Assembly (NCBI GenBank): GCA_003022535.1
Contig: PXTT01000019.1
Coordinates: forward strand, 1 to 58,913
Source: Bacteroidetes bacterium QS_9_68_14
GTDB taxonomy: Bacteria; Bacteroidota; Rhodothermia; Rhodothermales; Salinibacteraceae
DNA: 58,913 bases
Direction of reading: 5' to 3'
Shown here piece by piece: positions 47,775 to 58,913 of this stretch; within the stretch, counting starts at the first letter, position 1, and each line of letters begins with the position of its first letter. Both the position numbers and the translations under genes were made by a program. The notes beneath the pieces were generated by a model. The model ran no database searches, was not told the DNA's origin, and worked only from the letters and a program-made list of their open reading frames with translations.

Positions 47775-48680
47775 GGCAACGCCCTCACCGGGGCCCGTGT
47801 TTCTGCCTGACGCCCCCCAGCATTTGTTTCGCTTGCTCTTTGCAAGGAGCCCCACCTCGCCTCTTCGGGGCCGTTCGGCACGCGCGGGACCGGGGGGCGA
47901 GGCGGAGCTCCGCACCGAGAGCCGGACCCGTGCCCTGCTCGCGTATCTGGGGCGGAGTGCTGAACGTTCTCCTGTGAAAATGCCGGGCGGGTGCTTGACG
48001 TTGCCGAAAAGCATCGTTAACATAGGAGGGCCTGAAAATCAGCCCCTGCCCTGCGCCCTCCGGTGCGCCGGCAGTGCGCCGCGCGCGAGTCGGTCTTTTT
48101 CGCCCTCCAGCCTCAGCCCGCGCTCTCCTGCGCATCGGCGGGGCGTTCCCGTTTCAGGCGGCCCGAGCGGCCTGTTGCCGAGCCGGGCCCTGCCGGCGGC
48201 TACGTGGGCCGTTTCGGCCTCGTATGCCCCCGGTGTGAGCGACCTGTGGATAACTGCGCGGGGCGCCAGGCGCGACTCAGACTGCCTCCTGTTGACGTGC
48301 TCTGCGTTGTGTAAAACCACGGGCGGCAACGCCAACCCGCTCTGCGGCAACCGTTTACCTCGTTGATAAAATGTGTACGGCCTGAGTGAGGTGGGGAAAA
48401 TGGGCCTCTTTCTCGCTTTCGCTTTCGCCGGGCGCGGACCCTGACGTGGAAAAGGCGCCCCGCTCGTTGCCACCAGCCGCGCAGAGCGCCGAACCTGCGG
48501 TGCGAATGCCGTCCCCCCGCGCCGGTCGCTCGCCTCGCAACGCCCGGCGCTGCGTGCCTCGGTCCCACGTTGCCCTGCCCCGCGCCACCGGCCGGGCGCG
48601 CTGCTGTTTCCGTATCCACTTTCCCGACGCTCATTCACCACCGCGCCGCGCCGGCGTGGCCCGTCCCTGTCCCCCCTTGC
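47775..48680. other. 906-nt gap upstream of dnaA, candidate replication origin
   Basis: No credible gene on either strand. It contains an exact DnaA box (48245), a one-mismatch box TGTGTAAAA (48308-48316), a weaker GTATCCACT (48612) and an A/T-richer spot GTTGATAAAATGTGTAC near 48363. Genes to the left run leftward and dnaA-dnaN run rightward, as expected at an origin. GC skew was not computed. Confidence 0.45.
48245..48253 (-). promoter_or_regulatory. DnaA box
   Basis: TGTGGATAA is the exact complement of the consensus TTATCCACA, 428 nt upstream of dnaA. Confidence 0.6.
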
Positions 48681-50308
48681 ATGGAGCCGTCCGATCCCGC
48701 TGCGCCCGCCTCTGCCGAAGCGGCCTGGCACGCTTGCCAGGACATCATCCGTGACAACGTGAGCCGGCAGAGCTACAAGACGTGGTTCGAGCCGCTCGAG
48801 GCGATGAGCCTCGACGAGGAAGGCGGCCTGCGGCGCCTGACGGTGAAACTGCCGAGCCGCTTTTACTACGAGTGGCTGGAGGAGCACTACTTCGGCCTCC
48901 TTCGCAAGACCGTTACAAAAGTCCTCGGAGACAACGGGCGGCTTTTCTACGAGGTCGTCATCGAGAAGCCCAAAGGCGGCCACGAGGAACACGAGGGTTC
49001 AGAGGGGGCGTCGATGCGGCTGCCGGCGCGGCCCTCCCCGGCGCAGACGCCGGCCAGCCCGACCCTTCGCGTCGCCCCGAGCGGCAGATGCGTGCCGGCC
49101 GCCCCGGCAGCGGGCCGGGCGAAGAGGGCGCCTCGTCGGCGGAGGCCCCACGAGACGCTTCGCAGCAGCAGGGCCCTCCGCAGCAAGGCGCTTCGCAGCA
49201 GCAGGGCGAGGAAAGCGGCGACGTGCCGGTCAAGAATCCCTTCGCCATCCCCGGCCTGCAGAAGGCAGACGTAGACCCGCAGCTCAACGATAGCTACACG
49301 TTCGAGCGCTTCATCGAGGGGGACTGCAATCAGCTCGCGCGCGGAGCCGCCTGGGCGATCTCGCAAGCGCCGGGCACCACGCGTTTCAATCCGTTTCTCA
49401 TCTACGGTGGCGTGGGGCTGGGCAAGACGCACCTCATTCAGGCCATCGGTAACTACGTCGAGCGGCAGGGCGCAGGCAGTCAGACGGTGCTCTACGTCTC
49501 CAGTGAGCGGTTTACGACCGAGTTTGTGCGGGCCATCCAGAACAACCGCATCAACGAGTTCTCGATGTTTTACCGCCAGATCGACGTGCTGATCGTCGAC
49601 GACGTGCAGTTCTTTAGCGGCAAGGAAAAGACCCAGGAAGAGTTCTTCCACATCTTCAACGCCCTCCAGCAGAACGGCAGGCAGATCGTCCTCAGTGCCG
49701 ACCGCGCCCCCCGCGAGATCGACGGCATCGAAGAGCGCCTGCTCAGCCGCTTCCAGCAAGGCCTGGCGGCGGACGTGCAGCCGCCGGAGCTCGAAACCCG
49801 CATCGCCATCCTGCGGCGCAAGGCCGAGGACGACGGCATCGAGCTGCCCGAGGAGATCATCGAGTTCATGGCGCACAACATCAAAAGCAACATCCGCGAG
49901 CTCGAGGGCGCCTTGATCCGGCTGATGGCGCACGCGAGCCTTCACCAAGACGACCTCGACCTCTCGCTGGCAAAGGACGTGCTGGGCGACCTCGTCAGTG
50001 AGCGGCGCTCCGCCCTGACCGTCGAGGAGATCCAGCGCATCGTGTGCGAGCACCTGTCGGTTGAGGAAGACGCCCTGCGCGGCAAGACGCGCAAGCGCGA
50101 CGTGGTGCGCGCCCGCCAGATCGCCATGTACTTCTGCAAAAAGCGCACCGACCACTCGCTAAAGACCATCGGCCTGCACTTCGGCGGGCGCGACCACTCG
50201 ACGGTGATCCACTCCAACAACCGCGTGGAAGAGCAGATGGAGGTGGACCCCGAGTTCGAGAAGACCGTCGAGGACCTGCGCCGCAAGATCGACTTGCGTA
50301 GCCGGTGA
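48681..50308 (+). CDS. dnaA: chromosomal replication initiator DnaA (one-base frameshift in linker)
   Basis: DnaA binds origin boxes and melts oriC. Domain I reads from ATG 48681: AWHACQDIIRDNVSRQSYKT, WFEPLEAMSL, RFYYEWLEEHYFGLLRK, up to about residue 105. The frame then changes. Domain III reads in another frame: NPFAIPGLQKADVDPQLNDS, YTFERFIEGDCNQLARGAAW, Walker A GGVGLGKTHLIQAIG, Walker B VLIVDDVQFFSGKE, LLSRFQQGLAADVQPPELET. Domain IV ends with the DNA-binding signature (RDHSTVIHSNNRVEE) at TGA 50308. Adding one G to the G5 run at 48996-49000 joins both parts into a continuous Gly/Ala/Gln-rich linker. Since the gene is essential, a homopolymer base-call error is the likeliest explanation. 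Confidence 0.9.
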
Positions 50309-50532: not shown

Positions 50533-51723
50533 ATGAAATTTACCGCTTCCAGCGCCGACCTGCTCGACGCGCTCAACACCACGAGCGGGGCCGTTCCCTC
50601 CAAGAGCACGCTCCCGGTCCTCGAGTGCATCCTGTTTGAGAACAAGGAGGGCGCGCTCCTCCTCAGCGCGACGGACCTGGAAATCTCGATCACGCAAGAG
50701 GTGTCCGATGTGCAGTTCGCCGCCAACGGCGAGGCGGGCCGCGACGAGGCCGTGGCCGTGCCCGCGCGCCGCCTGATCGACACGCTACGCGCGTTGCCGG
50801 ACCTGCCCGTGACCTTCACCGCCGAGGAGGGCGACGGCGAAGGCGAGGACCAGATCGCCGTGCGCCTCGAGACCGACCAGGGGGAGTACAAGATGGTCGG
50901 CCACGACGGGGCGGACTACCCCGACCTGCCGGAGCTGGAAAACGAGGAGCAACGCATCGAGCTGGAGAGCAGCCTGCTGAGCCGCGCGATCAAGAAGACC
51001 AGCTTTGCGGTCAGCCAGGACGCGCTGCGGCCCGCGATGATGGGCATCTACTTCGAGATCGGGCCCGAGGAGGGCCGCACCGTCGCTACCGACGGGCACC
51101 GCCTCGTGCGCCTGACGATGGACGAGCTGGTCAGCGAGGAGGAGCTGACTTTCATTGTGCCCGAGAAGGGGCTCTCGCTGGCGGGGCGCGTGGCCTCTGG
51201 CCAGGCCACCGGCGAGGGCGGCCTCTGCACGATCAGCGTGGGCGAGGGCCACGTGGGCTTCAACTTCGGCGAGGCGCAGGTGATGGCCCGCCTGATCGAC
51301 GAGACGTACCCCGACTACGGAGCCGTCATCCCCGACGAGAACGAGAAGACGCTGACGGTGGGCCGCGAGACGCTCCTGGCGGCGGTGAAGCGCGTAGGGC
51401 TCTACTCCTCCTCTACGACCAACCAGATCCGCCTGGAGATCGAGGCGGACCGCCTCGACATCAGTGCCGAGGACATCGAGCGCTCCTCGCGGGCGCACGA
51501 GGAGGTGCGCTGCGACTTCGACGGCAAGGGGGAAAGCGAAATGACCATTGGCTTCAACGCCAACTACCTGACGGAGGTGCTGAGCAACCTGACTGGCGCG
51601 GACGACGTGGTCTTCCGGCTCTCCACGCCCAACCGCGCCGGCATCGTCACCCCCGAGGAGCAGGGCGAGAACGAAGACCTGCTGATGCTCATCATGCCGG
51701 TGATGCTGAACACATATGCGTAG
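50533..51723 (+). CDS. dnaN: DNA polymerase III sliding clamp beta subunit
   Basis: A 396-residue ring clamp. MKFTASSADLLDALNTTSGA and STLPVLECILFE start domain 1. LSRAIKKTSFAVSQDALRPA and MMGIYFEI are in domain 2, DGHRLVRLTMDE in the same domain. The C-terminus PEEQGENEDLLMLIMPVML ends in the hydrophobic-cleft MPVML-type motif. Length is slightly above the usual 370-380 because of acidic inserts. It follows dnaA after 224 nt on the same strand. The integron remnant begins 36 nt after its stop. Confidence 0.95.
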   Translation: MKFTASSADLLDALNTTSGAVPSKSTLPVLECILFENKEGALLLSATDLEISITQEVSDVQFAANGEAGRDEAVAVPARRLIDTLRALPDLPVTFTAEEGDGEGEDQIAVRLETDQGEYKMVGHDGADYPDLPELENEEQRIELESSLLSRAIKKTSFAVSQDALRPAMMGIYFEIGPEEGRTVATDGHRLVRLTMDELVSEEELTFIVPEKGLSLAGRVASGQATGEGGLCTISVGEGHVGFNFGEAQVMARLIDETYPDYGAVIPDENEKTLTVGRETLLAAVKRVGLYSSSTTNQIRLEIEADRLDISAEDIERSSRAHEEVRCDFDGKGESEMTIGFNANYLTEVLSNLTGADDVVFRLSTPNRAGIVTPEEQGENEDLLMLIMPVMLNTYA

Positions 51724-51759: not shown

Positions 51760-51930
51760 TCACTGGGCGTGGAGGCGGTCGAGAGGGCTTTTCGCGCCGG
51801 GGCTGCCGGCGACGTACATGTAGATCATGGCCACCTTTACATCTTCGTGCCCGAGGAGGCACTGCACGGTGCAGGTGTCGTGTCCGCTCTCCGGCAGGTG
51901 CGTGGCGAAGGAGCGGCGGACAGCGGGGCC
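51760..51930 (-). pseudogene. degenerate C-terminal stub of an integron integrase
   Basis: The minus strand reads HGPAVRRSFATHLPESGHDT, then CTVQCLLGHEDVKVAMIYMY and VAGSPGAKSPLDRL, ending in TGA. This matches the catalytic end of IntI-type tyrosine recombinases (HTLRHSFATHLLESGYDIRT, VQELLGHKDVSTTMIYTHV, VRSPLDRL). The His of LLGHEDV survives, but the nucleophile Tyr-Thr-His context has become YMYV, and the HTLRHS block is HGPAVRRS. Nothing of the N-terminal 250 residues can be found upstream. Its orientation, opposite to the cassettes and adjacent to the array, is the normal integron layout. Confidence 0.75.
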
Positions 51931-52123
51931 ATGAGAGGACAGGTTTGGGATGATGTGTTTCCGACGGGGGTGTGCGAGCGTATTGAGCAGACAGGGGCCT
52001 CGTTCATGCTATACGCGTGCTCTCACGTAGGATCAACCTATATCGCAACTCGGTGGCAGCATACGGGTTAGGGGGTCCGATGCCGATCCTACCGGGCGCG
52101 TGATGCATAATTGTAGGTTATAC
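51931..52123 (+). other. attI-like region with first recombination core
   Basis: Between the integrase stub and the first cassette, the core GTTATAC (52117-52123) lies in TAGGTTATACCGC. No paired 5' arm typical of attC was found here, which fits an attI site rather than attC. GGATCAACC and GGGTTAGGG nearby could be weak integrase-binding sites. Confidence 0.45.
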
Positions 52124-52789
52124 CGCTCAGGCACGCTCACAGAAAACCGAACTCATGGTAAACCCCTTACCTTCGCCGCCGCACTTCTTTTCTTCGTTGG
52201 CTTTTGCCGGCCCTCGCCGGTTCAGGCGCAGACCGACACAGGAGTTGAGATCCGTCTGGACACGTCACGGGCGGCGGAAGGTCGAAAGCAACTGAAGCGA
52301 CTTCTGCGCGAATACGACCTCGAACCGTGGCTCTCCACGCGAAAGGTTCTCATCAAACCCTACGCCCGTTCACACAGCCACCCTGTGCTGCGACTCAACA
52401 CCAAGTTCGTGAACGACGACGAAAAAGCACTTTCCACTTTCCTACATGAGCAAGCGCATTGGCACGAGGAAGCCCACAAAGAGGCCGTCAACGACGCTAT
52501 CGACCAGCTTCGAGAGCACTACCCAGATCCACCCAACCACGAAGAAATTGGCACACGCTCTGAATACAGCACGTACCTGCACCTGATCGTAAATTGGCAG
52601 GAACTGGACGGAATGGCGCAGTACGTAGGTGAGGAGAAAGCGCGAGAGGTTCTGTCGTCTCTGGACCGATACGAATGGATTTACGGACAGGTGCTCCAAG
52701 ACACGAGCGAGATCGGAGCGATACTGGCCGAACACGGCTTGCTCATTACACCGGGAGAAGGACTGGTGGTTGAAGCAGATGAACAATGA
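52103..52789 (+). CDS. cassette 1: exported zincin-like protein (HExxH)
   Basis: About 228 residues. A hydrophobic signal-like segment (LTFAAALLFFVGFCRPSPVQAQ) is followed by a domain with FLHEQAHWHEE (HExxH, residues about 115-119) and a later Glu-rich SEYSTYLHLIVNWQELDGMA, a gluzincin-like arrangement. No family recognised; a metal-dependent peptidase is an inference from the motif. The only in-frame ATG ahead of the signal (52103) lies before the integron core at 52117. So the start would come from attI-side sequence, or a non-ATG start is used. The next ATG (52154) is in another frame. Confidence 0.6.
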   Translation: MHNCRLYRSGTLTENRTHGKPLTFAAALLFFVGFCRPSPVQAQTDTGVEIRLDTSRAAEGRKQLKRLLREYDLEPWLSTRKVLIKPYARSHSHPVLRLNTKFVNDDEKALSTFLHEQAHWHEEAHKEAVNDAIDQLREHYPDPPNHEEIGTRSEYSTYLHLIVNWQELDGMAQYVGEEKAREVLSSLDRYEWIYGQVLQDTSEIGAILAEHGLLITPGEGLVVEADEQ

Positions 52790-52792
52790 GCA

Positions 52793-52923
52793 GTATAACC
52801 CAGCGTTGCACCTGACCCTTAGCGTTGCTACTTTCTGCTATGCTCACAGCTCCGTCAAACGTCTTTGCCGACTGAATAGCGCTCACGCCGGAGACGCCAG
52901 CGCAGGTGAACTCACAGTTATGC
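52793..52923 (+). repeat. attC site 1
   Basis: 5' core GTATAAC (52793-52799) and 3' core GTTATGC (52917-52923). Inner arms GCGTTGCACCTGA and CGCAGGTGAACTC are partly complementary. 131 nt. Confidence 0.8.
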
Positions 52924-52948
52924 AGCGCACCTAATAGCTACTTCCAAC

Positions 52949-53299
52949 ATGAAGACGTACGCCCGAGTCGTCTGGCCAGAGCAAAGAGAGGCGATAGAGG
53001 AGGATAAGGTCGTCCCCACCAACCACAACAGGTGGAGTAATGATAATGATATTGTCGGAGTCACATATGAACCGGGTACAGTTGTGATGTTGTGGGACCT
53101 TGAGAAGGAATTTGGTGGAATGCTATCTAGATGGATTGAGGGGCAAGTAAAGGATCATGGCGGTTGTTATTTGCTAAAATTCGAGGCTGATATAGAAACG
53201 GAAATGGATATGACTGGATGGGGACAGTTTGGATCAGTCGTACACGAAGGGCCAATCGACCTAGAAGAAGTAAACATTATTGAGTACGAAAAAGTATAA
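52949..53299 (+). CDS. cassette 2: hypothetical protein
   Basis: A 116-residue soluble acidic protein: MKTYARVVWPEQREAIEEDK, NDNDIVGVTYEPGTVVMLWD, EKEFGGMLSRWIEGQVK, ending IDLEEVNIIEYEKV. No family recognised. Its A/T-rich codons (ATA, AGA, TTA used freely) contrast with the GC-rich chromosome and mark it as acquired. It begins 26 nt after the attC 1 core; the next core starts at 53294, overlapping the last two codons and stop (GTATAAC contains TAA). Confidence 0.7.
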   Translation: MKTYARVVWPEQREAIEEDKVVPTNHNRWSNDNDIVGVTYEPGTVVMLWDLEKEFGGMLSRWIEGQVKDHGGCYLLKFEADIETEMDMTGWGQFGSVVHEGPIDLEEVNIIEYEKV

Positions 53300-53347
53300 C
53301 ATAAAGATAGTTAATTGGTACAACACTATAGTAAACAAAAGTTATGA
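53294..53347 (+). repeat. attC site 2 (short)
   Basis: 5' core GTATAAC (53294-53300) includes the cassette 2 stop. 3' core GTTATGA (53341-53347) includes the cassette 3 start ATG. Only 54 nt, shorter than the usual attC range, with an AT-rich middle and weak ATAG / CTAT arms. Confidence 0.55.
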
Positions 53348-54093
53348 AATGTGCACTATGCCTAGAAGATAAGAAGCTTAGAAAATCTCATATAATACCA
53401 GAGTTCTTCTACAAGCCGATATACGAGGAGGATCCGGAGAGATATTTTGGAGTTTCGACCGATTCGTCAGAGGGAATTGACCATAGGCAGCAGGGAATTT
53501 GGGGCCGCCTATTGTGTGGGGATTGCGAACAACATTTGAGTAAATGGGAGGACTATGCCAGCACTCTGCTTTACCAGAGGGCTCAAGTTCAGGAGATCTC
53601 TATTGGACTCAGAGTAGTCAACGTAGAATACGAAAAGTTTAAGCTTTTTCTGCTCTCTTTGCTTTGGCGTGCCGGTGCTACCAGCAGGAAGGAGTTTAGT
53701 GAGGTATCTCTTGGTCCACACGAGGAGAAATTGCGAAGGATGCTTATCGAAAGCGAACCAGGTCCGCCGGAGAAGTATGGATGCATGCCAGTACTATGTC
53801 CAAAGTATAAGGACCTCTTACAGAAGATGATTATCTCGCCGGACACCGTTAAGGTAAGAGCACATCACGTTGTGCGATTCCTCCTTGGAGGGCTGTTTTG
53901 GAATTTTTTCGTGTCCAGCCACACACCATCGATTGCCTCCGACGGTATTTTCCTGACCGAAGGTGGTGAACTCACAATTCTGGCGGAGTCAGAATTTACC
54001 AGCGATTACATTGAACAACTTTATAGGCGCTGGAAGGACTCTGGCAATCTGGACGATCTGAGTGACAAATTTGGCGCCAATAACGCTGCATAA
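53344..54093 (+). CDS. cassette 3: Cys/His-rich HNH-like protein
   Basis: A 249-residue protein starting MKCALCLEDKKLRKSHIIPE, then FFYKPIYEEDPERYFG. The CxxC, SHIIP and later LLCGDCEQHLSKWE (CxxC-4-H) form the zinc and histidine pattern of HNH_5-like endonucleases. The helical C-terminal two thirds (FKLFLLSLLWRAGATSR; HHVVRFLLGGLFWNFFVSS) is unassigned. Nuclease activity is inferred. The start ATG lies inside the attC 2 core GTTATGA; the stop TAA (54091) lies inside the attC 3 5' core GCATAAC. Confidence 0.7.
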   Translation: MKCALCLEDKKLRKSHIIPEFFYKPIYEEDPERYFGVSTDSSEGIDHRQQGIWGRLLCGDCEQHLSKWEDYASTLLYQRAQVQEISIGLRVVNVEYEKFKLFLLSLLWRAGATSRKEFSEVSLGPHEEKLRRMLIESEPGPPEKYGCMPVLCPKYKDLLQKMIISPDTVKVRAHHVVRFLLGGLFWNFFVSSHTPSIASDGIFLTEGGELTILAESEFTSDYIEQLYRRWKDSGNLDDLSDKFGANNAA

Positions 54094-54278
54094 CCTTCGC
54101 TAGAGGTGACGGAAGGCTGATGCCACCATCGATCGAAATGCGTTCGGAGGTTTTGACTTCGCCGTTCGAGCGCGCCTCAGCCAGTGAATGGAAACTCCGG
54201 CTAGCGCGGTTATTTCTTGTTAGACGGCGCTCTGGTTGGCGTTTTCCCGCCGTCCGCACCTCAGCTAAATCGTTATGC
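54088..54278 (+). repeat. attC site 3 (possibly two merged sites)
   Basis: 5' core GCATAAC (54088-54094). Two 3' cores are possible: GTTAGAC (54219-54225), which fits the classical GTTRRRY consensus, and GTTATGC (54272-54278). Arms CGCTAG / CTAGCG pair with the first. GAGGTGACGG and CCGTCCGCACCTC pair with the second. GACGGC/GCCGTC lies between the two cores. Confidence 0.7.
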
Positions 54279-54309
54279 GTCTCATCGCTTACTAACGCCT
54301 TTCCGAATC

Positions 54310-55860
54310 TTGGCGGATACTTACGATTCGAAAGCAATTACCGGAAGCGTGTATGAAGCAATTCAATCCTGTACGAAGTTCGAAAACTCACCGATAACTG
54401 GAAGTTGGACCCAAGAGATAGTGTCGAACGTGATTTACGACGAACGCCCATTTTATAGAACGATCGAATGCGTAGGTACGCTTTCTTCGGGAGGCGAAAA
54501 AGTTGATAACCTTCAGATCGAAATCGAGTATTCGGAGACAAAGCCAGACACCATTCGAGGTACTGTCATCGGATCAGCCGAAGATAGTGCTCGGATTATG
54601 AGGCTCTCTTCAGGCCCCGATGAGTGGAAACTTGTAGCTGAGGACTCACGCGGCGGTGGGGAATTCCGGTTATTTAGCGATACGGTGGCAGTGACCTCAA
54701 TGGCAATGATGTGGAACTCGGATCAAAAGCCGGTTCGTCCGATTCTCCGGTTCGAATTACTGGACTTCAGGAAAATCCGAACCTTTTCGAAAAGTCAGGA
54801 ATCGGAACCTCGCCGTCTACTTTATTTTCTGGATGGTCCGGAGCGCCCTTGGGAAGGAGCCATTCAGCGGGAGATCTCTGATGGAGGAGAATTTATTTAC
54901 CAGAATAGCTACCTTGATCTCGATCTTCGATCTCCCTTGAGGCTGTTCGTAACTAAGGAACTCTTCACTGACCAGGATCCAGACGATTCCTCCACGAGCC
55001 TTCGGACGCATGTTCCGATGTTGGGGGTATCCACCGATGCTCCGGAGGCAGAGCTTTCGACAGATAGATTTGTAGAACGAGCTGACCAATTACTCGAAGA
55101 CGTTTTGCTTTTGATGTCTCTCGGCTCCAAGCAGTGGTCCGTCTGGTTCGCCTCACAGCTCATCGTTCCTGGCAATCTTATTCAGGATCGCGTTCAAACG
55201 ACATCCCGAACGGTTTCCAACCAAGAGCCAGCTGAGAACATGGTCCCGGTCCCACCTAGCGATGCACTTGACTTCCTCCAAACCGTCCTGCCTCGGTACA
55301 GAGACTTTCGAAGAGAAGGTTGCGCCATGAAAACTGCTATTCAGACAACTCTTGCAAGCAGAGAGGAAGATTACGTCGAAAGCCAGTTCCTGAGTCTCTT
55401 CACTGCACTGGAAACACTGAAAAATATTTTTGCAGAACAAGAAGGTTTGGTAACTCTGCTGGATCAGGACACCTTTGAGGAAATGAGAAGCGACCTGAAA
55501 GATGTGGTTCGGGAACACATAGGTGGTGATGAGAACAGCGATCTGCGTAAAGAAATCTACAAATCGATGTTCGGCCTGAACAGACCATCCCTTCAATCAC
55601 TCCTTAACGGGATGTTCGAAAAATACGATACAGGAATTGAGGATCTGTATCCTCAAGACAAAAAATCAACTCTTAAAGACACGCGAAACAATCTCGTTCA
55701 TGGGAGAGGTGCACCTGATGATACAAGTAAACTGACAAATGAAATCCTCCGGCTCCAGGCACTCGTCAATCGACTTATACTGCGTATGCTAGGATGGAAT
55801 GACGTTTCTCAGTGCCCACCTGATTCAAGAAAAAGCCGTCTCAAAGGTTGTAGGGCATAA
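54310..55860 (+). CDS. cassette 4: large HEPN-domain protein
   Basis: About 516 residues. The N-terminal half is beta-rich and unassigned (GSWTQEIVSNVIYDERPFYR; IEIEYSETKPDTIRGTVIGS). The C-terminal half is helical (ESQFLSLFTALETLKNIFAE; DLKDVVREHIGG). It ends with DTRNNLVHGRG, the R-x4-H active-site motif of HEPN ribonucleases, near residue 460. The architecture resembles ApeA/HEPN abortive-infection proteins; function is inferred. No ATG follows the recombination core in frame, so TTG at 54310 is the best start. The stop TAA lies inside the next core GCATAAC. This is the largest cassette gene here. Confidence 0.68.
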   Translation: MADTYDSKAITGSVYEAIQSCTKFENSPITGSWTQEIVSNVIYDERPFYRTIECVGTLSSGGEKVDNLQIEIEYSETKPDTIRGTVIGSAEDSARIMRLSSGPDEWKLVAEDSRGGGEFRLFSDTVAVTSMAMMWNSDQKPVRPILRFELLDFRKIRTFSKSQESEPRRLLYFLDGPERPWEGAIQREISDGGEFIYQNSYLDLDLRSPLRLFVTKELFTDQDPDDSSTSLRTHVPMLGVSTDAPEAELSTDRFVERADQLLEDVLLLMSLGSKQWSVWFASQLIVPGNLIQDRVQTTSRTVSNQEPAENMVPVPPSDALDFLQTVLPRYRDFRREGCAMKTAIQTTLASREEDYVESQFLSLFTALETLKNIFAEQEGLVTLLDQDTFEEMRSDLKDVVREHIGGDENSDLRKEIYKSMFGLNRPSLQSLLNGMFEKYDTGIEDLYPQDKKSTLKDTRNNLVHGRGAPDDTSKLTNEILRLQALVNRLILRMLGWNDVSQCPPDSRKSRLKGCRA

Positions 55861-55978
55861 CACGTCGCTACACCTGACGAAAAGAGGAGGTCAGTTTGCT
55901 TTCCTTGGATATTGGTACTTCCATTGCTCTCAACAGTGGAAGTGCCACGACTTTTCGCAGGTGAGATTTCCGTTATGG
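55855..55978 (+). repeat. attC site 4
   Basis: 5' core GCATAAC (55855-55861), arm CGCTACACCTGACGAAAAG, central stem ACTTCCA / TGGAAGT, arm CTTTTCGCAGGTGAGA, 3' core GTTATGG (55972-55978). 124 nt. This is one of the best-formed sites of the array. Confidence 0.85.
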
Positions 55979-56057
55979 GTCCCTCTCTGAATCTCTATCC
56001 CTTGACGATTACGTTAAGCTAACTCCCAAGCTTCTCGTTACTGAAAAGACATAGCAC

Positions 56058-56885
56058 ATGGAAGGAGAAGCCCCCGGCAATTGGCTAACGCAGATCAACA
56101 GTATTGGACCATGGATTCTTTCTCTACTGGCACTCCTGCAAGTATGGGTTTTGGAGGCATGGAGGAAGTGGCGGACGGGAAAAATAGAAATCCATGCAAA
56201 CCAAGTTGAAGTAGGTTATGGAGCACTCGGACCTGTTTTTTCTATCTTCGGCACCCTGAGATGTACTCGCAACGATGTTTTCGTGGAAGAGGTGCGGGCC
56301 CAACTTGTTAAGGAGAGGGATAATGCGAAACACTCATTTACGTGGTTGGCGGTTAGACCGACGACAGTTTCCGTAACCGGCGAAAGTCAGGAAGAGCTGG
56401 AAATAGCATCGGCTTTTCAGGTGAAGAAAGGGAATACAAGAAAATTCGGGTTTCTCTTTCACGAAGAGAGATTTCGAGAAGAGCATCGTCCAACGCTCGA
56501 AGAACTTGAGCAACAGTGGATAGAATATTATAGAGATTCAAGCGAGCAAATCATTGATCAAGCAAACGGAAACAACCAGCAAGTCCCTGACCGAGCCACG
56601 CTTTCCCAGCACATTTTTAATAGGTTTGTTGAGGATGGACATACAACCGACGAGTACACTGAAATGGATAGGGCCTGCTATTGGGAAGAAGGTGAGTATA
56701 GGGTGACAGTCAAAGTAGACTCCTCAAATCCAGACGAAGTATTCGAAAAATATTTTTCATTTGATTTGTATGAAAGAGAGGCAGAGGCTCTTAGAAATAA
56801 TTCAATGGTGGCAATTAGGGAGACCTGTAACCAGCCACATAACTACCAATTTGCATATCCTAATCTCGAAAAGGTCGAAGAATAG
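56058..56885 (+). CDS. cassette 5: hypothetical membrane-anchored protein
   Basis: 275 residues. A single N-terminal helix (IGPWILSLLALLQVWVLEAW, residues 17-36) is followed by a large soluble domain: KIEIHANQVEVGYGALGPVF, FSIFGTLRCTRNDVFVEEVR, an acidic helical middle, then EEGEYRVTVKVDSSNPDEVF. No family recognised. With the basic WRKWR after the helix, the bulk is predicted to face the cytoplasm. AT-rich codon use (ATA, AGA, AAT) again differs from the chromosome. It begins 80 nt after the attC 4 core. Confidence 0.68.
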   Translation: MEGEAPGNWLTQINSIGPWILSLLALLQVWVLEAWRKWRTGKIEIHANQVEVGYGALGPVFSIFGTLRCTRNDVFVEEVRAQLVKERDNAKHSFTWLAVRPTTVSVTGESQEELEIASAFQVKKGNTRKFGFLFHEERFREEHRPTLEELEQQWIEYYRDSSEQIIDQANGNNQQVPDRATLSQHIFNRFVEDGHTTDEYTEMDRACYWEEGEYRVTVKVDSSNPDEVFEKYFSFDLYEREAEALRNNSMVAIRETCNQPHNYQFAYPNLEKVEE

Positions 56886-56889
56886 AGAC

Positions 56890-57077
56890 ACATAACACTC
56901 CGATACAGCTGACAAGGGGCAGGTGCCGGTTTTGATCGAGGTCACCGACGCGGGTTCGTCTTCGCTGGCCCGGCGTGCTCACGCCGTGGGATGGATACTT
57001 CGGCGGGCGGAGTCGTTTAGCCGAGTAGCTCCGATTTAACGAAGAAAAGCCCCTTGCAGCTGAGCTTCACGTTATAC
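56890..57077 (+). repeat. attC site 5 (long)
   Basis: 5' core ACATAAC (56890-56896), arm CAGCTGACAAGGGGC, arm GCCCCTTGCAGCTGAG, 3' core GTTATAC (57071-57077). 188 nt, longer than usual, with GC-rich middle material (GCGTGCTCACGCCGTGG). Confidence 0.8.
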
Positions 57078-57155
57078 GGCCCTGGTGCCGAAGCAACGAG
57101 AACGAAAAGAAATCGACCGACGACCCCAAACAGACTTTTTACTTGCCACAGCGTC

Positions 57156-57347
57156 ATGGTTACCGAATCCGAAGTCCAGACCAAAGACGATTTGGAGCGC
57201 CGAAACAAGGCGTGGAAGCACTGCGCCGAGCGTGAAGACTATAGGTGCGCTATCTGCGGGCAGGTGCCGCCTTACGGTGAGCGGGAAATCTACTTTGAGA
57301 GCGGACTCTGTGGTTTCCACGCTCACACGCTCAACAAGGACGACTGA
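57156..57347 (+). CDS. cassette 6a: small Cys/His protein
   Basis: A 63-residue protein MVTESEVQTKDDLERRNKAW, ending with CAICGQVPPYGEREIYFESG and LCGFHAHTL. The CxxC and C-x2-H-x-H arrangement suggests a zinc site, possibly a minimal HNH-like or zinc-ribbon fold. No family recognised. It shares its cassette with the lipoprotein gene 57 nt downstream, with no attC between them. Confidence 0.55.
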   Translation: MVTESEVQTKDDLERRNKAWKHCAEREDYRCAICGQVPPYGEREIYFESGLCGFHAHTLNKDD

Positions 57348-57404
57348 ATCAGGCCGTCTGTAAATCGTACGGAACACCATTTTCAAAACTTTACTTTCCT
57401 GTCC

Positions 57405-57779
57405 ATGCGATTCGCTTCGACCGGATTACTTCTCGCACTTGCTTTGTTGATCGCCGGATGCGATAGCAACAGCTCCGAGGACGGAAACGAACCGCCCGTT
57501 ATTGAGGAAATACTTGTCAACCCATCAACGGTTGAACCCTCACGAGGTGCTGAATTGACAGCCGTAGCAACCGATCCAGAAGGGGAAGAGCTAAGTTATT
57601 TCTGGAGCAGCGACGGTGGTAAAATAGAAACTGGTCTTTCGTCCTATTCGACCACCACGAACCCTGCACAATGGGAGTCACTGGACGAAACCGGGGATTA
57701 CGAGATCAAATGTACGGTGAGCGATTCGGAATCGACTGCCAGCAAAACCGTTACGGTCGAAGTGCGTCAATCGAATTGA
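57405..57779 (+). CDS. cassette 6b: lipoprotein with PKD/Ig-like domain
   Basis: A 124-residue protein. Signal and lipobox LLIAGCDS (Cys22). The mature part has one Ig/PKD-like fold: PPVIEEILVNPSTVEPSRGA, ELTAVATDPEGEELSYFWSS, DETGDYEIKCTVSDSES, TVTVEVRQ. The order of strands (PxxxxxxxxxP, DPEGxxLxYxWxxxxG, GxYxxxxxVxD) is typical of cadherin-like/PKD surface modules. It is likely exported and membrane-anchored. The stop lies four bases before the next attC core. Confidence 0.8.
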   Translation: MRFASTGLLLALALLIAGCDSNSSEDGNEPPVIEEILVNPSTVEPSRGAELTAVATDPEGEELSYFWSSDGGKIETGLSSYSTTTNPAQWESLDETGDYEIKCTVSDSESTASKTVTVEVRQSN

Positions 57780-57782
57780 GCC

Positions 57783-57908
57783 GTACAACCAATCATTGCA
57801 GCCGACCGTGGGCTGTCGGCTCCCAGACGCGCGCCAGCATCACAAAAACCTCGTCACTACGATTTGAAAGTGATCGCTTCCCACGGCGGCTGAATTCTGC
57901 CGTTATAC
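57783..57908 (+). repeat. attC site 6
   Basis: 5' core GTACAAC (57783-57789), arm GCAGCCGACCGTGGG, arm CCCACGGCGGCTGAATTC, 3' core GTTATAC (57902-57908). 126 nt, with strong arm pairing. Confidence 0.87.
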
Positions 57909-57929
57909 CAATTCCTCCAAGGCTGTGGC

Positions 57930-58667
57930 ATGAGCTGTATTTTTTGCAAGGAGGAGGTTGGCTCCGAGCATGAGGAGCATATACTTCCTGAATCATTGGG
58001 TGGCAAGGACTGGGCAGTGTTGCCAGAAGGCCTCGTTTGTGAGAAGTGCAACCAATATTTTGGTGCGAAGGTCGAGTCGCCTGCCTTAAGCAGTTTTCCT
58101 TTCCTCCCATTTCGGTTGTTCTTGCAAATCCCGACCAAGCGGGGTAAAGCTCCACGTCAGCAGGTAACCATCGGTGAGATTATGTCGAGTGGTATCCCTG
58201 GGGTGGTTGGTGCTAACCCCAGGGATGATGAAATCGAAACTGGCATTCGTGAGGAGAATGTCACCCAGATGCGAATCAGAGCAGAAGTGACTGAGCCGCT
58301 TGCAGTCAGCAGACTTTTGTTGAAAATGGGTTTGGAAGTCGTAGCTGCTGACAATGCCGAAGATGCGCTATCTGAAAAATTTGATGAGGCCAGGAAATTT
58401 GTGAGGGCTCCCGCGACGGGCTCAGAATGGTGGTTTTTGATGGTTACAGATCATGATTCTCTGTTTCGTAAACTCAAACAAGGGGTAACATGTCAGGAGT
58501 GGTTCGAAGGTTTAAAGTTGGAAGTTGTGGATGAGCAAGGAGCCGAAGTATTTCACCTTCAGCTCATAGACATGCATTTCATTACGCCGCTCGAAAGAAG
58601 AGTTGGCCCACCAGACATGTCAGACCTCTCCGAACCAAAGTACAGGCTCTTCAACCCGGTGTGTTGA
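57930..58667 (+). CDS. cassette 7: HNH endonuclease-like protein
   Basis: A 245-residue protein. MSCIFCKEEVGSEHEEHILP, followed by ESLGGKDWAVLPEGLVCEKC and NQYFGAKVES, is an HNH_5-type fold: CxxC, EHILPESLGG (the H-I-P catalytic block) and CxxCN. The C-terminal two thirds (VSRLLLKMGLEVVAADNAED; EWWFLMVTDHDSLF) is unassigned. It could be a defensive or mobile nuclease; this is inferred. ATG 57930 lies 22 nt after the recombination core, and the stop precedes the next core by five bases. Confidence 0.78.
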   Translation: MSCIFCKEEVGSEHEEHILPESLGGKDWAVLPEGLVCEKCNQYFGAKVESPALSSFPFLPFRLFLQIPTKRGKAPRQQVTIGEIMSSGIPGVVGANPRDDEIETGIREENVTQMRIRAEVTEPLAVSRLLLKMGLEVVAADNAEDALSEKFDEARKFVRAPATGSEWWFLMVTDHDSLFRKLKQGVTCQEWFEGLKLEVVDEQGAEVFHLQLIDMHFITPLERRVGPPDMSDLSEPKYRLFNPVC

Positions 58668-58672
58668 GATTG

Positions 58673-58781
58673 GTATAACCTCCATTGCAGCCGACGACGG
58701 TGATGCCCTTTTGCAAAATTGATTCTTCCTCGGCTCTCTCCATGCGTCGAAGCCCGTCGCGGCTGAATTTCCACGTTATGC
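58673..58781 (+). repeat. attC site 7
   Basis: 5' core GTATAAC (58673-58679), arm GCAGCCGACGACGG, arm CCGTCGCGGCTGAATTT, 3' core GTTATGC (58775-58781). 109 nt. Its 3' part closely resembles site 6. Confidence 0.87.
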
Positions 58782-58823
58782 CGCTGCCTTTACAAGCAGG
58801 CGCACTTGCCGTAGCTTTGAGCC

Positions 58824-58913
58824 ATGAGAGTTCAGCGCGTTTACATCGAGACGTCCGTCGTCGGCGGCTGCTTTGACGAAGAGTTCGCGCCGTGGTCGAA
58901 CGGACTGATGAAA
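58824..58913 (+). CDS. cassette 8: PIN-domain protein, N-terminal part (cut by window edge)
   Basis: Thirty codons visible: MRVQRVYIETSVVGGCFDEE, then FAPWSNGLMK. The opening strand with ETS(V/I)xxGxF(D) is typical of a PIN-domain subgroup, in which the Asp/Glu of the first strand binds metal. The antitoxin, if any, would be beyond the window. ATG at 58824, 42 nt after the attC 7 core. Confidence 0.6.
   Translation, partial: MRVQRVYIETSVVGGCFDEEFAPWSNGLMK

Follow-up and report, generated by a model that had tools for sequence, protein, structure and literature searches.

An integron with a damaged integrase directly downstream of dnaN in an uncultured bacterium

Introduction

How does an integron come to lie directly beside dnaA-dnaN, and can its cassettes still be exchanged? 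These questions are raised by a stretch of DNA for which a first, sequence-only reading had proposed a chromosomal integron with seven attC sites and eight rightward cassettes, either frozen or served in trans. For recombination, the integron integrase IntI uses attC in the form of its folded bottom strand (PMC5371416, PMC11023631), and sedentary integrons mostly keep this strand on the template of the leading strand (25 of 30; PMC5371416).

The window analysed here is the whole stretch of 58,913 nucleotides, which is the entire contig C12 of the bin G000 (1.76 Mb, 76 contigs, 56% complete). Bins like this one presumably derive as a rule from hypersaline material, and the host is an uncultured, probably salt-loving bacterium. 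A DnaN-based search gave Bacteroidetes bacterium QS_8_68_28 and SW_4_67_19 as the nearest public relatives. The genus has three known members, G000 and the sister genomes G001 and G002, and all three assemblies are interrupted within the array or close to it. Other genomes named individually below (G013, G015, G020, G023, G024, G035, G038) are relatives outside the genus.

Results

The array starts about 0.4 kb beyond the end of dnaN (position 51723) and shows the anatomy of an integron (Table 1). An intI remnant is divergent from the cassettes, attI lies between this remnant and the first cassette, and sites with R''/L''/L'/R' architecture are clustered at the cassette ends in one orientation. 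Since attI, attC and intI are all homologous to those of intact integrons of the family, the assignment as a chromosomal integron is supported. Its position beside dnaA-dnaN, which recurs in the sisters, could be confirmed. All seven cassettes read rightward, two of them (cassettes 2 and 5) carry two ORFs each, and the GC content of 49.5% in the array versus 68.4% before it bears out that the cassettes are AT-richer. Having two or more attC sites but, in their vicinity, no IntI that exceeds the profile cut-off, the locus also has the make-up of a CALIN.

Table 1. Features of the integron and of the presumed origin side, in order of position in the window.
Feature	Position	Strand	Description
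DnaA-box-like sites	48245..48316	-	upstream of dnaA; TTATCCACA at 48245, TTTTACACA at 48308
intI remnant	51772..51948	-	C-terminal 59 codons; TIGR02249 positions 257-315, E 5.7e-13
intI 5'/attI region	51949..52123	+	91% identical over 177 bp to G001
cassette 1	52124..52792	+	ORF 52100-52789, secreted-looking protein, HEQAHWHEE motif
attC1	52793..52923	+	131 bp; R1 covariance model E 2.3e-7; 82% identity to full G013 attC; bottom-strand fold -20.5 kcal/mol
cassette 2	52924..54087	+	ORFs 52949-53299 (116 aa), 53344-54093 (249 aa)
doubtful site	53294..53347	+	54 bp, core pair GTATAAC/GTTATGA, between the two ORFs of cassette 2
attC2	54088..54278	+	191 bp class; blastn 75% over 192 bp to full G020 attC, E 2e-28; bottom-strand fold -39.0 kcal/mol, R and L arms paired
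cassette 3	54279..55854	+	about 504 aa protein (ORF 54346-55860), C-terminal Apea-like HEPN domain
attC3	55855..55978	+	124 bp; R1 E 2.8e-12; 81% identity to G020 attC, 80% to G013
cassette 4	55979..56889	+	ORF 56058-56885, 275 aa, N-terminal hydrophobic segment
attC4	56890..57077	+	188 bp class; blastn 78% over 189 bp to full G024 attC, E 1e-37; fold -34.7 kcal/mol
cassette 5	57078..57782	+	ORFs 57159-57347 (62 aa, CxxC), 57405-57779 (124 aa, lipoprotein-like, PKD-type domain)
attC5	57783..57908	+	126 bp; R1 E 2.5e-10
cassette 6	57909..58672	+	HNH_5 protein, 245 aa (57930-58667); PF14279 E 2.8e-12
attC6	58673..58781	+	109 bp; R1 E 1.4e-11; 79% identity to G024 attC
cassette 7	58782..58913	+	cut by contig end; begins MRVQRVYIETSVVGGCFDEEF

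We scanned for outer cores and inner arms occurring in pairs and found six sites in the array, all on the + strand and in a single orientation, where 0.74 were expected and 300 dinucleotide shuffles gave a maximum of four. The other 51.7 kb contained one such site, also on the + strand. For the covariance search that had been suggested as a check, we built the model R1 from 27 attC, all lying next to an integrase and taken only from other genera of the family. The arms of these training sites were paired in 88.5% of cells, compared with 73% in shuffles and 32–41% when slid, and 14 of 21 pairs had changed on both sides. When both strands of the window were searched, R1 recovered four of the six sites (attC1, attC3, attC5 and attC6; E 2.8e-12 to 2.3e-7). 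All four are cassette junctions, and the rest of the window gave no further match. Rfam at gathering thresholds returned tRNAs only.

The two sites missed by R1, attC2 and attC4, probably exceed the length limit of the model; with filters off, the long sites were lost as well and only weak partial matches appeared. As sites of 188–191 bp were absent from the R1 output, we used blastn to test them. Compared to individual attC of other genera, five of the six sites matched with 75–82% identity, the exception being attC5. The attC lineages are thus common to several genera. All six bottom strands folded into arm-paired structures (−15.6 to −39.0 kcal/mol), and in the minimum-energy fold of attC5 the inner arms are paired and the outer cores unpaired. 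An attC class of 188–192 bp is recurrent across genera of the family, and its interior sequence is conserved besides the arms (alignment A2, which includes attC2 and attC4). In G005 (contig C1) and other relatives, attC matches are spread over several chromosomal places, at least five in G005, and many are distant from intI. Integrase-less arrays look common in the family. In the available part of G000, R1 found no attC off the contig analysed here.

The seventh attC of the sequence-only reading could not be confirmed. The 54 bp between the two ORFs of cassette 2 are in a position that fits an attC and carry R''/R' cores, and a comparable core pair occurred in only 0.6% of mononucleotide shuffles of the same segment. 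It forms no stem (fold −1.6 kcal/mol), R1 gave no support (best E 5.2 with filters off), and blastn against the relatives yielded no match. Lacking stem, model and blastn support, the site may be a relic or chance, and we count six attC, with cores and arms, and seven cassettes. A check for more cassettes to the right had been suggested; the contig ends at 58913, inside cassette 7.

The integrase stub described earlier was confirmed by the profile match in Table 1. It retains the LLGH and MIY motifs and has lost about 256 N-terminal residues; with 49 bits against a cut-off of 265 for TIGR02249, it falls short of the full-length, catalytic integrase of a complete active integron. The remnant shares 73% identity with the C-terminal end of intI in G001; relative to this gene, 798 bp are missing. 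The junction lies at about 51912–51920, and GGCGGA occurs at both edges of the deletion (microhomology). Differences to G001 are even over the codon positions (9/5/7 in 45 codons); dnaN, compared in the same way, is constrained (22/18/95 in 394 codons). The codon pattern shows a remnant that appears to be free of purifying selection, in a sample that is small and in a comparison where the G001 intI may itself decay. Together, the loss of 798 bp and the even drift support the earlier view that the array is frozen, as far as self-encoded activity is concerned. An intact intI elsewhere in the genome, which the sequence-only reading had left room for, was not found by profile search in the G000 contigs (56% complete).

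The attI core (ATAATTGTAGGTTATAC, about 52107–52123) has counterparts outside the genus: the core ATAATTRTAGGTTATRC stands in the same position upstream of intact intI genes in G013 (first integron) and G020, and likewise before the G015 intI, which is interrupted by a single internal TAG.

Both sister genomes also carry intI beside dnaN. In G001 it is near-complete but spread over two frames, is separated from dnaN by about 24 bp and points in the same direction as the remnant in the window; its single frameshift could be an assembly error. In G002 an intI stub of about the last 36 codons lies beside dnaN, followed by unrelated sequence and the contig end, and MIS replaces MIY, with serine for the catalytic tyrosine. 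Further along in G001 (L063, contig C46, 870–1439), past the first cassette and an attC-like site, there is an N-terminal fragment of another integrase, different from the first; after it come an attI-like GCATAAACTCAGTTATG and an ORF for a lipoprotein. G001 possibly has two tandem integrons beside dnaN.

Full-length IntI was found in 24 of 60 relatives, several of which have more than one. In the class, 76 of the 146 genomes sampled had a full-length IntI over the curated cut-off; integron integrases are common there, in contrast to the few that appear in published surveys. Among the matches listed for relatives and class sample, intI directly beside dnaN was seen only in this genus: there was no case in the 57 relatives outside it and none in the class sample. 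An integron on the origin side is therefore unusual within the sampled relatives, as had been supposed. The nearest case outside the genus among these matches was G123, in which about 14 kb of a single contig separate intI and dnaN and the scan detected no attC cluster. On larger or complete contigs of the class, judged by eye, intI and dnaN positions range widely, and we make no claim of an origin-proximal bias of integrons in the class. A literature search in a partial library gave no earlier report of an integron beside dnaA, dnaN or the origin.

We placed the origin by gene order and two DnaA-box-like sites only. TTATCCACA at 48245 is the only exact copy in the window. With one mismatch allowed there are two sites versus 2.2 expected, a chance-level number, so that it is their position that speaks for them; upstream of dnaA they likely mark the oriC side. 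The GC skew around dnaA is flat and was of no help. Provided that the origin lies upstream of dnaA, the array would follow the leading-strand-template rule of sedentary integrons. The dnaA gene itself (48681–50308) is split over two frames, domain I versus the rest, and the shift falls within the linker (about 49000–49100); in G001 it is a single frame, and the two-frame state in G000 is probably a sequence or assembly error.

The protein of cassette 3 matched Pfam PF18739 (E 2.3e-7) and Cas13-ApeA of PADLOC (E 8.2e-9). This HEPN_Apea protein is a candidate defence gene and had no homologue in 59 related genomes. The cassette 6 HNH_5 protein has a partial, distant relative in G023, and cassette 5 matched PKD (E 5.6e-6) and K319L-like PKD (E 3.9e-7). 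No confident family was found for cassette 1 (Pfam/NCBIfam-type profiles) or for either ORF of cassette 2, the second of which shows by eye a zinc/HNH-like CxxC...SHIIP pattern and has distant relatives in G035 and G038. Cassette 4 had no Pfam match and NCBIfam matches below the cutoff only. The 30-residue fragment of cassette 7 had no NCBIfam match; we take its start to be reminiscent of PIN-domain proteins. For the ORF of cassette 1 no clear in-frame start is evident: the frame already runs open from an ATG at 52103 inside the attI region, and the ATG at 52155 is out of frame. This is either an attI-cassette fusion or a frameshift. The three cassette proteins searched in the sister genomes (those of cassettes 2, 3 and 6) had no homologue there. 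Cargo absent from the sisters, on attC types common to other genera, would fit cassette exchange in a shared pool.

Discussion

Our data make it very probable that a sedentary chromosomal integron took up its place immediately downstream of dnaN before the three known species of the genus separated, and that its capacity for recombination is now being lost. It had the normal anatomy, with intI toward dnaN, then attI, and then cassettes facing away from intI; if the origin is upstream of dnaA, the replication fork travels the same way. The cassettes would stem from a pool common to related genera, taken up by IntI acting on folded bottom-strand attC and on attI. The integrase gene has since been damaged in each species: a 798-bp deletion destroyed intI here, one sister has a frameshift in it, and the other a truncated copy. 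As intI is destroyed in G000, the array is no longer shuffled by its own enzyme, and would now be a fixed cluster of accessory genes, whose present immobility and expression we infer. The dnaN-adjacent location in three species argues against a mobile integron (class 1-3). Since G000 is incomplete and the contigs of the genus are broken near the array, an intact intI or a longer array may exist elsewhere.

Such an intact intI would matter for the view that the array is still mobile, its attC and attI being recombined in trans by an IntI from another part of the genome or from a mobile element. The cores and arms of attC and attI are intact, full IntI is common in relatives, in several of them more than once, about 44% of the G000 genome is unseen, and the first cassette at the same attI differs between G000 and G001. 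However, the available part of G000 holds neither a second IntI nor any other attC, and G001 may have had its differing cassette before the integrase was lost. We regard service in trans as unlikely.

It is quite improbable that the location itself is adaptive, be it through co-replication, a higher cassette copy number or early replication controlling how attC folds. The location is common to the three known members of the genus, and the attC bottom strands would be on the leading-strand template if the origin is upstream of dnaA, as in most sedentary integrons (PMC5371416). Yet damage to the integrase in each of the three genomes is at odds with selection for an active integron at this site, and in complete genomes of the class intI lies at widely differing positions relative to dnaN. 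Origin-proximal gene dosage matters mainly in fast growers, and the dosage effect would be weak if the host is slow-growing. An extended version, to which we give very little credence, is an integron platform at the origin where early co-directional replication would control attC folding or cassette dosage and which would be served in trans by integrases of related halophiles sharing attI and attC. If true, a dnaN-origin platform would persist with integrases from the halophile community.

Metagenome assembly and the breaking of the array contigs could point to a binning or assembly artefact at the dnaN-integron junction; we consider this extremely improbable, because two separately assembled sister genomes have the same dnaN-intI junction and the attI region of G001 is 91% identical. 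That the sites are a dispersed, REP-like palindromic family without attC identity, as their form of imperfect palindromes between genes might suggest, can practically be dismissed, since the covariance model search contradicts it: the sites stand only at cassette junctions, show one orientation, the attC architecture and an extra unpaired base in one arm, belong to a family that is also seen next to intact integrases of other genera, and have no counterpart elsewhere in the window.

The decaying sedentary integron that we favour is of a type already known; what is new is its place beside dnaN, together with damage to the integrase in three genomes. This genus-wide address with integrases damaged in three different ways offers a natural series for the study of integron decay. 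For Salinibacter ruber M1, a halophile placed in Bacteroidetes and probably related to the host, the IntegronFinder 2.0 paper reports a complete integron (PMC9024848), compared with the decayed one described here. A remnant in Treponema phagedenis is like our array in that attC and cassettes have outlasted intI at a conserved locus; it differs in that no intI was found there, and in phylum and locus (PMC3607928). The CALIN, the IntegronFinder class of attC clusters lacking an integron-integrase, is likewise an attC array without functional integrase. In contrast to a CALIN, attI and an intI stub remain here, which marks the array as a decayed complete integron and not an isolated cluster. The closest parallel is the integron downstream of ilvD in Xanthomonas, which is found genus-wide and whose intI has often been inactivated while the array became stable (PMC12444791). 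That system has another address (ilvD, not dnaN), belongs to another phylum and is documented in hundreds of complete genomes (PMC12444791), and it shares with the array described here the decay of an integron into a fixed array of genes.
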